In this document: positions 3,177 through 7,952 of the stretch, piece after piece
How positions within the stretch are numbered: position 1 is the stretch's first letter
Layout of the letters: each line of letters begins with the position of its first letter
DNA from: Chromatocurvus halotolerans
GTDB lineage: Bacteria > Pseudomonadota > Gammaproteobacteria > Pseudomonadales > Halieaceae
Length of the DNA: 64,000 bases
NCBI RefSeq assembly: GCF_004340525.1
Contig: NZ_SLWX01000001.1
Coordinates: forward strand, 1-64,000
Direction: 5' to 3'
Notes under the pieces: model-generated
What the model saw: the letters and a program-made list of their open reading frames with translations, nothing else
What the model was told of the DNA's origin: nothing
The model's database searches: none
Translations under genes and position numbers: made by a program

Positions 3177-3370
3177 TGATCGGTTCCCCAGATCGCGTTG
3201 TGGAGTGGTCCGTGAACAATTCTAATCGCTATGTATGATGATAGGGTAGCCGAATTAGATTAACGGACGGGCAAGTTAGGCGCTTTGCAAGTCAGCTTCC
3301 GGCCAAGTGAGGTCGGTCGGAGTTCGTGGAGTCCATCGGATCGTTTATCTTTACGATTCGGAGAACAACG

Positions 3371-4592
3371 ATGGAAAGAATACCCAAGGCAACATACACG
3401 CCGGAGTTCCGGGCTGAGGCAGTGAAGCTGGTTGAGTTGACTGGCATGTCAGTGGCGAAAGCCGCAGAGCGCTTATCGATTCCCAAAAGTAGTCTCAGTA
3501 ACTGGGTACGTGCTGCCCGTGCAGGAAAGCTGCAACAGGTTGGTGAGCAGCAGCGTGCGCCCACGGAGCTTGAGATGGAGCTGGCCCTTGCCCGCCGCGA
3601 GCTCGCCGAGGTCAAACAGGAGCGCAATCTGTTAAAAACAGTTTGCGGCGTACTTCGCGAAGGAATCCCGGTGAAGTACGCGCAGATTCACCGGCTCAGG
3701 CACGAGCACTCTGTCGCGGCCATATGCCGCCTGCTGGATGTCTCCGAGAGCGGTTACTACGCTTGGCGAAAGCGTCCACCGTCGCCACGGGCGAGGGTGG
3801 ACGCGCGACTGGAGCTGGAGATCAAGGCGGCTCACGAGCGCACGCGTCGAACTACGGTCCCGAGCGACTACAGTCCGAGCTTGCAGACAACGGTATTCGT
3901 GTCGGGGTTCATCGCATCAAGCGAATTCGCCGTGAGCAGGGCTTGCGCTGCAAACCGAAGCGGCGTTTCCGCGTCACGACGGACTCGAAGCACGCTCTGC
4001 CTGTGGCGCCGAACAGGCTTGCCAGGCAGTTCTCGACGGATGCGCCTGACAAGGTGTGGGTGACACATCTCACGTACATCGACACGGCCGAGGGCTGGCT
4101 GTACCTGGCGGGCGTCAAGGACTCATTCAACGGTGAGTTTGTTGGATACGCGATGTCGGAGCGGATGACGGTTGATCTGACGGAGCGACGGCGCCCCTGG
4201 TGAGCGCATCGCACCACGCCCGGTCAATTCCTGCATCCACCCTGCGGACCTTCCCATAAACACCTCCAATATCAAAGGTGTTGCGACGACCAGTTAAATC
4301 CACCCAATACTGTGCCGGCGCCTACCAAAAGCTCCTGCGGCAGCACCAGATGCTGTCGTCCTTGAGCCGCAAAGGGAGCTGCTGGGACAACGCGCCGATG
4401 GAGAGCGCCTGGGGCGTCTTGAAATTAGAGCTCGTGCATCATGATCGGTTTAAGACGCGGGAGGAGGCACTAGCTGCTATTCAGGAGTACATTGAGATCT
4501 TTTGCAACCGAACCCGAAAGCAGGCTCGCCTTGGTTACCTGTCGCCTGTACAGTTCATCAAGCAATACCGCCACATGCAGGCGGCAAATTGA
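3371..4592 (+). pseudogene. IS3-family transposase OrfA-OrfB, broken
   Basis: OrfA begins at ATG 3371 and shows the helix-turn-helix (GMSVAKAAERLSIPKSSLSNW) and a leucine-rich coiled segment. OrfB begins at the GTG at 3671 (VKYAQIHRLR). In typical relatives OrfB is in the -1 frame; here an indel near 3631-3650 fuses both in one frame. A second frameshift lies near 3845-3860, where the sequence moves to another frame at SNYGPERLQSELADNG. The first catalytic aspartate is replaced (WVTHLTYI instead of WVTD). The block with the second aspartate (HSDRGSQY) is missing and replaced by IS30 DNA at about 4180-4303. The reading then resumes with QYCAGAYQKLL and the catalytic-glutamate region (APMESAWGVLK) to the stop at 4590-4592. 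It cannot make active transposase. Confidence 0.85.
4178..4305 (-). mobile_element. IS30-family fragment: terminal repeat plus transposase N terminus
   Basis: Read on the minus strand, bases 4305-4278 form the end gggtggatttaactggtcgt-cgcaacac, resembling the terminal repeat of a group of IS30 elements. A start codon at 4257-4255 opens MGRSAGWMQELTGRGAMRS followed by PGAPSLRQ, the recognisable beginning of IS30-type transposases of the SPGAPS group. After about 27 residues the reading merges into IS3 orfB sequence near 4180-4190. Only one end survives, so the rest of the IS30 copy and some IS3 DNA were deleted together. Family assignment rests on recalled N-terminal motifs, not a search. Confidence 0.7.
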
Positions 4593-4793: not shown

Positions 4794-5627
4794 ATGTCCA
4801 CATTTTCCGCAGGCAGGGCCGGCAATGCACTGAACCGGATTGAGCAGAGTCCCCTGTTCCAGGGCTCGGTCATCTTCATTATCGTGCTGTCGGCGATCAC
4901 CATCGGCGCGAAGACCTATGAGCTCCCGCCGCTCGCCGACAGACTGCTTCCGTATCTGGACAATGCGATCACGGTTTTCTTTCTCACGGAAATCGTCCTG
5001 CGATTCCTGGCCTGTGACAACAGGCGACGCTTCTTCACCGATGGGTGGAATGTGTTTGACACGCTGGTTGTGGTGGGCAGCCTGATTCCGCTGGACAACG
5101 CGGACGCCGTGCTGATCGGCCGTCTGCTGAGGGTATTCCGGGTTCTGCGTCTGGTCTCTGTGGTGCCTGAGCTACGTTCGCTGATCAACGCCCTGCTTAA
5201 GTCGATTCCGCGCATGGGCCATATTGCACTGCTGATGTTCATCATCTTCTATATTTACGGTGCCGTGGGCTCTATGTTTTTCGCAGGCATCAACGAGGCC
5301 CTGTGGGGCGATGTTGCCATTTCCATGCTTACACTGTTCAGAATTGCAACCTTTGAGGACTGGACGGACGTCATGTACGAGACCATGGCGACGTTCCCGC
5401 TAAGCTGGATCTACTACCTCACGTTTATCTTCCTTACGGCGTTTGTCTTCCTGAACATGATGGTCGGCACGATTCTGGACGTCATGACTCGGGAGTTTCA
5501 CCGGGACAGCGACGATCAGGCGCAACGGGAGCGCGATGAGATCGTGAACCGCCTCGAAGTGATGGAGCGGCAGATCGGCGAGATCAGGGAGCACCTCATC
5601 GGGAGTGATGGCGGCGGTCGGAATTGA
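4794..5627 (+). CDS. Voltage-gated cation channel (bacterial Nav/Cav type)
   Basis: A 277-residue, six-helix, single-domain channel of the Ion_trans family, expected to act as a tetramer in the inner membrane. S1 lies at about 22-42, S2 at 52-74, S3 at 84-100, S4 at 103-131, S5 at 141-163, the pore helix at 174-187 and S6 at 203-231. S4 carries arginines at every third position (R110, R113, R116, R119), the voltage-sensor pattern. The selectivity filter is TFEDWTD (186-192). Bacterial sodium channels usually read TLESWSM or TLESWAS; here acidic residues occupy the positions after the glutamate and at the outer mouth, as in calcium-selective designs and relatives. The C terminus (about 240-268) is a charged coiled coil typical of tetramerisation. 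A TATACT at 4754-4759 may be its -10 element. Confidence 0.9.
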   Translation: MSTFSAGRAGNALNRIEQSPLFQGSVIFIIVLSAITIGAKTYELPPLADRLLPYLDNAITVFFLTEIVLRFLACDNRRRFFTDGWNVFDTLVVVGSLIPLDNADAVLIGRLLRVFRVLRLVSVVPELRSLINALLKSIPRMGHIALLMFIIFYIYGAVGSMFFAGINEALWGDVAISMLTLFRIATFEDWTDVMYETMATFPLSWIYYLTFIFLTAFVFLNMMVGTILDVMTREFHRDSDDQAQRERDEIVNRLEVMERQIGEIREHLIGSDGGGRN

Positions 5628-5654
5628 CCCCGGTAGCGCAATTTCGGTTATCCT
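5624..5654 (+). promoter_or_regulatory. Candidate promoter before the TIGR02647-type gene
   Basis: TTGACC (5624-5629) resembles a -35 box and ttatcc/tatcct (5648-5654) a weak -10 box, 18-19 bases apart. It sits at the very end of the channel gene and 40 bases ahead of the next start. It would serve the small gene and the alkyl sulfatase downstream. Confidence 0.3.
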
Positions 5655-5692
5655 CAACGCTGGCTAACCGCAAGCATACCGGGAAGAGCGCG

Positions 5693-5950
5693 ATGACCAT
5701 TGACCTCGAGATGACCCAGGAAATGTCACTGTTGCTGAAGTTCGATCCCGACAGCATGCAGCACGGATTGAAGATACACAGCGATGCCGACCCAGCCATC
5801 GTTGCCGCAGGAGAACGACTGCATGCCAAGGGGCTGATTGACCAGCCGGACGGTGGCTTCCTGACCTCGCTGGGGCATCAGGCCACGGAACATGTGCGCG
5901 CCCTGCACCAGATACTCGGAGCCGCACCCGACACCAGGATAGAAGGATAA
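5693..5950 (+). CDS. TIGR02647-family protein
   Basis: A short cytoplasmic protein (85 residues) with the features of the gammaproteobacterial TIGR02647 family: LLLKFDPDSMQHGLKIH, then AAGERLHAKGLI, DGGFLTSLG and a C-terminal helix. The ATG at 5693 is chosen because the family starts close to it; the open frame further upstream is not family-like. The fold suggests a small winged-helix-like domain (helical segment, then L-x-x-LG turn), but no function is established. It ends 4 bases before the alkyl sulfatase start and is probably cotranscribed with it. Confidence 0.75.
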   Translation: MTIDLEMTQEMSLLLKFDPDSMQHGLKIHSDADPAIVAAGERLHAKGLIDQPDGGFLTSLGHQATEHVRALHQILGAAPDTRIEG

Positions 5951-5954
5951 GTCC

Positions 5955-7952
5955 ATGCGAAACCCCTGCCTCAGCCTCTTTATCATCGGTCTACTGAGCG
6001 CCTGCGGTGGCGAAGCCCCCTCTCCCGGCACCAATTCTCTCGCTGACGGGGACGGCACGCGGCCCGGGGGCGCCAGTGAATCGACACGCAATGCAAACGC
6101 CGCCGTGGCCGACCTGCTTCCGCTTACCGACCCGCAGGACGTCGAGGACGCACAGCGCGGGTTCCTCGGCACAATTGATGGCGGGCGCATCACCGCGAGC
6201 GACGGGCAACTCGTCTGGTCATTCGAGGATTACGCGTGGCAGGAGGCGGCGGAGGAGACACCGGCAACCGTCAACCCCAGCCTGTGGCGTCAGGCTCGCC
6301 TCAACAACATCCACGGCCTGTTCGAAGTCCAGGAAGGCATTTATCAGGTCAGGGGATTCGATCTTGCCAACATGACAGTCATTGAGGGCGAGTCTGGCTG
6401 GATTGTGATCGATCCGCTCACCGTCGAGGAAACCAGCCGCGCTGCCCTCGCCCTGGTCAATGACACACTCGGTAAGCGACCGGTTAGCGCGGTGTTGTTC
6501 ACTCACAGCCACATCGATCATTTCGGCGGCATCCGCGGCGTGCTGTCAGCCGAAGAGCAGGAGCAGCGCGATGTCCCCGTCATCGCGCCAGTGGATTTCC
6601 TGCGCGAATCCGTCTCGGAAAATGTTGTGGCGGGCAGCGTCATGATGCGCCGGGCGGTCTACATGTACGGCATGAACCTGCCTCGCGACGCCACTGGCCA
6701 CGTTGATACCGGCCTTGGCAAGCAGCCTGCCGACGGCACCGCATCCATCACACGACCCACCGTGACAATTGATGACAATACGGGGGAGCTGGAGATTGAT
6801 GGCGTGGCGTTTGAATTCATGCACACGCCAGGCGCCGAGGCCCCGGCAGAATTCATGTTCTATCTCCCACAGCATGAAGCCCTGTGCGGCGCAGAAATCC
6901 TGTCACGCAACTTCCACAATCTTTATACCCTGCGCGGCGCAAAAGTACGCGATGCCCTCAAATGGTCGGGCTACATCGACCAGGCGCTGGTTCGCTTCGG
7001 GGACCGGGCCGGCACGATTTTCAATTCCCACCACTGGCCGGTATTCGGTAACCCTGCGGTGGATGATTACCTGAAAAAACAGCGCGACATTTATAAATAC
7101 ACTCACGACCAGACCATGCGTCTGGCCTCACGCGGTCTGACACCGAACGAAATCGCCGACACCATAGCCCTGCCCGCAGCACTGAAAGACAATTTCGCAA
7201 CGCGCGATTATTACGGCACGCTGAAACACAATGCCAAGGCGGTGTACCAGTTTTACTTCGGCTGGTACGACGGCAACCCGGTAAACCTCGATCCCCTGCC
7301 CCCGGAATCGCAAAGCCGTCGCTATGTTGAGGCCATGGGCGGCGTCGACGCCGTACTGGATAAAGCGCGAACCGCGTATCGCGAGGGGGCGTTCCAGTGG
7401 TCCGCCCGGCTCGCACATCACGTAGTCTTTTCCGATCCAGGCAATACGCAGGGACGAATCATGCTGGCCCGCGCCTATGACCAGCTCGGGTATCTTGCCG
7501 AGAGTGGCCCCTGGCGTGACGTCTACCTGAGTGGCGCACACGAATTACGTAACGGCATCACACCGATGTCGGGGCTCGTCGGAAATGGCGGCCTGATCAG
7601 CGCCATCCCGATCGATCTTTTCCTCACGGCCATGGCGACAAACCTGAATCCGGATGAGGCCGGGGACAAGGTCATTACGGTGAATCTCCGGGTGCCTGAC
7701 AAGGATGCGGAATTCACCCTATTGCTGGAAAACGCGGTCATGAACTTTCGCGAGGGTCTTTCCGATAACGCGGATGTCACGCTGAACATCAGTCACGCCA
7801 TGCTGCTCAAAGTGCTTGGCGGTGGCGCGAAAGTTACCGATCTGGTGGGTAACGAGGGTGTTTCCGTGGAGGGCAGCCGCATTCGACTGGGGCAGTTCTT
7901 TGCCAGCTTTGATCGCGTGGAGGATCCCGCTTTCCCGCTCACGACGCCCTGA
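5955..7952 (+). CDS. Alkyl sulfatase, lipoprotein form (SdsA/BDS1 family)
   Basis: A 665-residue zinc-dependent alkyl sulfatase, expected to cleave primary alkyl sulfates (SDS-like surfactants) to alcohol and sulfate in the periplasm or at the outer membrane. The N terminus is a lipoprotein signal with lipobox LSAC (Cys17), followed by a Gly/Ser-rich linker. The metallo-beta-lactamase core begins near residue 140 and has THSHIDH (183-189) as metal site, with further ligands expected at GAEAPAEFMF, LCGAEI and the SHHW region. A helical dimerisation domain (about 390-540) and a C-terminal SCP2-like domain (about 545-660) complete the family architecture. ATG 5955 follows a ggataa stretch. Confidence 0.9.
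   Translation: MRNPCLSLFIIGLLSACGGEAPSPGTNSLADGDGTRPGGASESTRNANAAVADLLPLTDPQDVEDAQRGFLGTIDGGRITASDGQLVWSFEDYAWQEAAEETPATVNPSLWRQARLNNIHGLFEVQEGIYQVRGFDLANMTVIEGESGWIVIDPLTVEETSRAALALVNDTLGKRPVSAVLFTHSHIDHFGGIRGVLSAEEQEQRDVPVIAPVDFLRESVSENVVAGSVMMRRAVYMYGMNLPRDATGHVDTGLGKQPADGTASITRPTVTIDDNTGELEIDGVAFEFMHTPGAEAPAEFMFYLPQHEALCGAEILSRNFHNLYTLRGAKVRDALKWSGYIDQALVRFGDRAGTIFNSHHWPVFGNPAVDDYLKKQRDIYKYTHDQTMRLASRGLTPNEIADTIALPAALKDNFATRDYYGTLKHNAKAVYQFYFGWYDGNPVNLDPLPPESQSRRYVEAMGGVDAVLDKARTAYREGAFQWSARLAHHVVFSDPGNTQGRIMLARAYDQLGYLAESGPWRDVYLSGAHELRNGITPMSGLVGNGGLISAIPIDLFLTAMATNLNPDEAGDKVITVNLRVPDKDAEFTLLLENAVMNFREGLSDNADVTLNISHAMLLKVLGGGAKVTDLVGNEGVSVEGSRIRLGQFFASFDRVEDPAFPLTTP

Follow-up and report, generated by a model that had tools for sequence, protein, structure and literature searches.

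An acidic EDWTD-type selectivity filter, normal for its clade, in a one-domain voltage-gated channel of Chromatocurvus halotolerans

Chromatocurvus halotolerans encodes a one-domain voltage-gated cation channel whose selectivity filter, TFEDWTD, is the normal filter of the clade to which the channel belongs. The gene lies in a stretch of 64,000 nucleotides (contig NZ_SLWX01000001.1, positions 1 to 64,000), which is the whole of the DNA analysed and is called the window here. On balance, judging from the sequence and by analogy with characterised channels, we favour a homotetrameric, depolarisation-activated channel in which Na+ would be the main carrier and Ca2+ would both permeate and block, much as in NavPp of Plesiocystis pacifica. 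New here are the co-occurrence of an arginine in the P1 helix (Arg183) with Glu and Asp at filter positions 3 and 4, and a repeated change of position 4 between Asp and Ser. The interpretation as a natural calcium channel, with which the original prediction started, is possible but not favoured. An ordinary member of the clade is likelier than a new calcium channel, because the filter is common in the relatives and NavPp passes Na+ and is blocked by Ca2+.

The features of the gene are collected in Table 1. The codons at 5349–5369 (ACC TTT GAG GAC TGG ACG GAC) encode T186, F187, E188, D189, W190, T191 and D192, and codon reading bears out the length of 277 residues, the position of the filter, the numbering of D189 and D192 and the acidic nature of filter positions 4 and 7, all as originally predicted. 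Residues 20–230 match the Pfam family Ion_trans (1.1e-44). No NCBIfam model was passed, the sole match being a potassium-channel model with 26.5 bits against a cut-off of 300. The voltage sensor had been described as intact with four arginines, and R110, R113, R116 and R119 are indeed invariant in 35 aligned sequences, the window channel included, as are F63, E66 and D89, which we take to be voltage-sensor residues. The coiled-coil tail was recovered as well. Its best heptad frame is hydrophobic at 7 of 13 a/d positions (the next frame at 4), and in the AlphaFold model S6 and the tail form a single helix from residue 204 to 272. Together with the six-helix Ion_trans domain, the S4 arginines at every third residue and the P1-filter-P2 loop, this coiled coil is a trait of BacNavs in the broad sense.

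Table 1. Features of the channel gene in the window
Feature	Position	Strand	Remarks
One-domain voltage-gated cation channel gene	4794..5627	+	ATG start, 277 aa, stop codon included
S4 voltage sensor core RLLRVFRVLR (R110, R113, R116, R119)	5121..5150	+	Arginines invariant
P1 helix, residues 174-185; Arg183 codon 5340-5342, at the place of NavAb Gln172	5313..5348	+	AlphaFold, alignment
Selectivity filter TFEDWTD, T186-D192	5349..5369	+	Codon reading
P2 helix, residues 190-200, overlapping the outer filter; one residue longer in NavAb and NaChBac	5361..5393	+	AlphaFold, alignment
S6 and C-terminal coiled coil as one helix, residues 204-272	5403..5609	+	AlphaFold, heptads

The AlphaFold model, a monomer built from 35 sequences, has a mean pLDDT of 91.0 and a pTM of 0.70; L164, which has one stop codon in its match, and 12 other rows were omitted from the structure alignment. 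The top Foldseek match is NavAb (5vb2, E 1.2e-12), with NaChBac, CavAb, NavMs and NavRh among the first nine. VIA-align gave Z 20.1 and an rmsd of 6.2 over 264 against 5vb2_D, and Z 19.1 and an rmsd of 3.0 over 223 against NaChBac. Ala216 in S6 takes the place of NaChBac Thr220, a position at which Ala makes the inactivation of NaChBac slower. Selectivity is not readable from this fold.

Transposase-like ORFs, in pieces and of IS3 type by eye, occupy window positions 3326–4592 and end roughly 200 bases short of the channel start. On the channel strand, a TIGR02647/DUF5669 protein follows at 5624–5950, its ORF overlapping the channel stop codon when counted from a TTG, and an alkyl sulfatase-type metallo-hydrolase at 5955–7952. 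Neither downstream gene neighbours the channel in any of the best 80 named loci listed. Clustering of ORFs of at least 90 aa (ATG starts only) from these 80 loci and the window put the commonest neighbour family in 9 loci and gave no family common with the window, so the gene neighbourhood offers no clue to function, for which Na+ uptake serving pH or motility, or Ca2+ signalling, would be candidates. Ca2+ exchangers were rejected as a clue: PF01699 was matched at 8 places in the genome, but also in 11 of 14 control genomes. Besides the channel itself, just one Ion_trans match in the genome exceeds the cut-off, a 290-residue potassium-type channel with the filter TTVGYGD on contig 2 (L002:1339–2211).

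In a whole-protein search of the window's family, 33 of 140 genomes had a match, and of 397 genomes sampled from its phylum 128 did; the window's own genome is counted both times. The filter was read in 205 rows, consisting of 202 homologous sequences, the window channel and two reference channels. Conservation is quoted from the 73 family and phylum matches with E <= 2.3e-57 (L004–L076; the window's own excluded, all at least 40% identical), because the contig scan, with 81 rows from the best 80 loci listed and all proteobacterial by title, was gathered partly by a filter-shaped pattern. Phylum matches within this threshold were all read and weaker ones by selection; the window's family gave three weak matches, of which those with TLESWSM and TLESWASQ were read and that of G011 was left out. 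TFEDWTD is present in 66 of the 73 rows, the others having TFESWATA (four), TFESWTS (two) or TLSSWET (one, NavRh). With an identical heptapeptide in 66 rows the filter is not a product of chance. A second group, about 33–38% identical to the window channel, carries TLEDWTD in 12 rows.

Among the best 80 loci listed, carriers of TFEDWTD include Marinobacter, Marinomonas, Colwellia, Pseudoalteromonas, Vreelandella, Methylophaga and Thiodiazotropha, and all three named Shewanella loci have TFESWTS. These genera are mostly marine or salt-loving. Matches also occur in 39 plasmid records, where four distant homologues were read with the filters TGDDWGN, TLESWSM, TLEGLGD and TLDGIGD. The last two are those of the Streptomyces plasmid channels L211 and L213, which have Leu at the P1 place and fall far outside the other groups. 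On the Vibrio alfacsensis plasmid NZ_CP032095.1 (43228–44015) a homologue was matched in two pieces with no listed gene beneath, and is perhaps frameshifted. A phage origin was rejected, since 50,697 phage records yielded one weak match of 25% identity.

A careful tree of 52 rows, unrooted and calculated with the filter region (window residues 179–199) left out, places the window channel and NavRh together in one clade of 22 rows (bootstrap 99, SH-aLRT 97). The second clade (8 rows, 99/96) holds the TLEDWTD channels together with L083 and L089, and the third (19 rows, 96/93) holds the glycine-filter rows, one further row and the remaining TLESWSM channels, NavAb among them. NaChBac and the three clades join at an unresolved fork. 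In a quick tree of 136 of the 205 rows the window clade has 88 rows, again with NavRh (SH-aLRT 99), and the second clade 12 rows (97), the NavAb-type rows being unresolved at the base. Because of their long end branches, the exact places of NavRh and NaChBac are less sure than these figures suggest. The tree covers NavRh, NaChBac and the NavAb-type channels; in it the window channel groups with NavRh and stands apart from the NavAb-type channels.

NavRh from the alphaproteobacterium HIMB114 (PDB 4dxw, to which row L076 shows one difference over 228 residues) is about 41% identical to the window channel. It was the top one-domain chain in a PDB search (194 bits), four-domain Cav chains scoring higher only as multi-stretch sums. 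It differs from the window channel in its filter (TLSSWET, where the third residue is Ser), in the Gln of its P1 helix and in its chain of 229 residues. NavAb shares the fold but is only about 30% identical, with Gln172 in P1 and a P2 helix one residue longer. The window channel has a TLESW-like filter with more acids and sits on a branch distinct from the NavAb-like channels, both traits of the ancestor-like BacNavs (AnclNavs) as defined in PMC7041947. It thus appears, with the same modest preference as the reading as a whole, to be of the AnclNav type with an EDWTD filter, and would be a candidate for the branch of NavPp and CavMr, which are compared here through their published descriptions.

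The pore alignment places D189 opposite NavAb Ser178, as predicted. For D192 the outcome depends on the gap, since the stretch from the filter Trp to S6 is one residue shorter in the window channel than in NavAb; D192 pairs with Met181 by counting and with Gly182 in the computed alignment. Position 7 is for this reason less firm than position 4. Against NavRh the filter region aligns gap-free. From the filter Thr to the S6 Gly there are 39 residues in the window channel, 40 in NaChBac and 57 in CavMr by the numbering of PMC7041947, and an L6 extension of CavMr is also recorded in PMC10120453. With 39 residues against 57, the outer pore is not CavMr-like. The closeness to the engineered NavAb derivative CavAb (TLDDWSD), which the original prediction emphasised, holds for Asp at positions 4 and 7 and fails at position 3, where the window channel has Glu188 instead of Asp.

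The nearest native case is NavPp, a one-domain AnclNav with Thr at position 1 and E-D-W-T-D at positions 3–7 as in the window channel, and Leu instead of Phe at position 2, the comparison being with its published filter. According to the measurements given in PMC7041947, NavPp (TLEDWTD, measured as T232A) is Na+-selective with PCa/PNa 0.308 and PK/PNa 0.16, and is blocked by Ca2+, some of which permeates. CavMr from Meiothermus ruber (TLEGWVD, measured as G240A) has PCa/PNa 218 in the same source. It resembles the window channel in being one-domain, in Glu at position 3 and in the acidic position 7, and differs in its long P2–S6 stretch and in Gly at position 4, where the window channel has Asp189 and on which the Ca2+ selectivity of CavMr depends (PMC7041947). 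Filter exchanges described there gave PCa/PNa 41.4 for NavPp-D4G and 215 for NavPp with the CavMr filter, whereas CavMr with the NavPp filter fell from 218 to 13.8 with PK/PNa 0.95, monovalents being less discriminated. As TLEDWTD gives 0.308 in one backbone and 13.8 in the other, the sequence does not settle selectivity. The count of acids in the filter no longer predicts selectivity either, as stated in PMC8002053.

The canonical backbones of NavAb and NaChBac are Ca2+-selective with TLEDWSD and TLEDWAD, respectively (PMC7041947), so a channel with Glu at position 3 may still select Ca2+. PMC7764494 describes NaChBac with both serines changed as completely calcium-selective, and its LEDWAS version as conducting Na+ and Ca2+. 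Asp at position 4 alone (TLEDWSM NavAb) raised the permeability of Ca2+ over Na+ about 100-fold, and a rule has been proposed in which this beacon aspartate makes a channel either Ca2+-selective or strongly Ca2+-blocked (PMC10120453). NavPp with TLEDWSD was still Ca2+-blocked and was not made Ca2+-permeable, and with TLEDWAD it was not Ca2+-permeable, inward current being absent in divalent-containing baths (PMC7041947). The predicted ancestral BacNav filter is TLED(or S)WTD (PMC7041947, citing Liebeskind 2013). Some BacNavs and AnclNavs also have Phe at position 2, and in NavAb the change L176F created no Ca2+ block and left the current unreduced by Ca2+ (PMC10349818); the one difference between the filters of NavPp and the window channel is thus not known to alter ion handling. 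Literature searches found no recorded current of any TFEDWTD channel, and neither TFEDWTD nor FEDWTD was found in a search of the running text of articles.

Inspection of the P1 helix revealed Arg at position -3 from the filter Thr (R183 in the window channel) in all 158 rows with Glu3-Asp4, 78 of them from the best 80 loci listed; this position lay outside the filter pattern of the contig scan. Gln is found there in 25 of 25 ESWSM rows, NavAb included, and Leu in two Streptomyces rows. The coupling of Arg and Asp4 is not one-to-one, because Arg is kept in 6 of 6 ESWTS rows and two Asp3-Asp4 rows (TFDDWMAY and TGDDWGN) have Gln. In NavAb the Gln172 side chain is hydrogen-bonded to the Glu177 backbone and touches Arg185, and one mutant has Met181 shifted toward Gln172 of the neighbouring subunit, as reported in PMC12919392. 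By analogy, Arg183 could bridge Asp192 or the filter backbone and so offset one added charge per subunit. As the AlphaFold model is a monomer, this putative salt bridge is proposed from the co-occurrence and the published NavAb contacts.

At position 4, at least three separate nests of the 52-row tree show a change between Asp and Ser; the tree, being unrooted, does not give the direction. One nest comprises the Shewanella-type TFESWTS rows and another those with TFESWATA, and the third is a single TLESWTS row within the second clade. Two channels of one genus, L050 (TFEDWTD) and L074 (TFESWATA), share 227 of 290 residues, with 104 of 115 in S1–S4, 14 of 23 in P1-filter-P2 and 22 of 42 in the tail, P1-filter-P2 being one residue longer in L074. 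In the family-level group of these two, L050 combines TFEDWTD with the P1 Arg, and L074, L075, L066 and L069 combine TFESWATA with Gln and the extra P2 residue.

Glycine at position 4 was seen in same-strand, adjacent pairs of one-domain channels (L091:1-1851, L098:1-2051 and L097:1-2001, from genomes G173, G212 and G256). The pairs combine TTEGWPT or TTEGWPS with TMEGWPD or TSEGWPD. In this they resemble domains I and III of the Cav channels of animals, and each pair may form a heteromeric channel from two genes. The genome that contains L097 is 8% contaminated, and one S4 of this pair seems to be altered.

In the mechanism that we prefer, depolarisation would move the S4 arginines and open the pore. 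The ring of Glu188 would bind cations at the narrow site, with Asp189 and Asp192 forming an acidic vestibule above it. Na+ would most likely be the main carrier, and Ca2+ may enter, linger and partly block, as in NavPp; that Ca2+ permeates the window channel is likely. Arg183, in the P1 helix behind the filter, would be a probable bridge to the filter backbone or its acids, offsetting part of the negative charge. This Na+ reading draws on the identity of the filter with that of NavPp at all positions except 2, on the absence from the window channel of both the Gly4 determinant and the extra post-filter length of CavMr, and on the arginine in every Glu3-Asp4 row. It is also consistent with the NavRh filter, from a member of the clade, being Na+-selective when grafted into NaChBac. 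NavRh itself is, however, non-conducting on expression (both PMC4225499), and with TLSSWET and Gln at -3 it only weakly supports the reading. A Ca2+-selective channel, in which the Glu188, Asp189 and Asp192 rings, with 12 acids per tetramer as in CavAb, would bind Ca2+ tightly, is a less probable alternative that we would put at about one chance among four. Acidic positions 4 and 7 speak for it, as do the Glu3-Asp4-Asp7 mutants of NavAb and NaChBac (PMC7041947, PMC7764494), the gain in TLEDWSM NavAb with its beacon aspartate rule (PMC10120453) and the Ca2+ preference that CavMr keeps with TLEDWTD (PMC7041947), and the first and last of these published cases also count against Na+ as the main carrier. 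Against it, NavPp prefers Na+ with TLEDWTD and did not become Ca2+-permeable with the two filters that work in canonical backbones (PMC7041947), Arg183 adds a positive charge per subunit beside the filter, and the tree puts both NavAb and NaChBac apart from the window channel.

It is rather improbable that the channel is poorly selective, with Na+, K+ and Ca2+ all permeant, and serves to depolarise the membrane instead of passing one specific ion. The weak discrimination of monovalents by CavMr with TLEDWTD (PMC7041947) would fit such a role, and with position 4 alternating between Asp and Ser, strict selectivity would seem not to be conserved in the clade; NavPp, however, does discriminate against K+ (PMC7041947), and a heptapeptide held in 66 of 73 relatives is constrained. 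That the gene is dead or silent in this strain, through the upstream insertion sequence or a loss of tetramer assembly, is very improbable. The transposase-like ORFs do end about 200 bases before the start codon, and the AnclNavs of H. elongata and T. turnerae, with NavPp-like filters, gave no detectable current in Sf9 cells (PMC7041947), an observation that also weighs against the Na+ reading. The window channel, however, has a full-length ORF, invariant sensor arginines, the usual filter and a confident model, and the channel family is present across many genera.

In the first report of a native prokaryotic Cav (2020), the number of acids in the filter was no guide to Ca2+ selectivity, and no current was obtained from two of the four AnclNavs (PMC7041947). 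The clade described here supplies many natural EDWTD filters together with close relatives whose filters are neutral, so that the role of EDWTD and any cancellation of its charge by the P1 arginine become directly testable. It is doubtful, and less probable still than Ca2+ selectivity of the window channel, that the TFEDWTD clade as a whole represents widespread Ca2+-selective channels of marine gammaproteobacteria, in which nature would toggle ion preference, as between L050 and L074, by a switch that varies the arginine of P1, the acids of the filter and the length of P2 together as one module. Were the channel to prove Ca2+-selective, marine gammaproteobacteria would commonly have voltage-gated Ca2+ entry.
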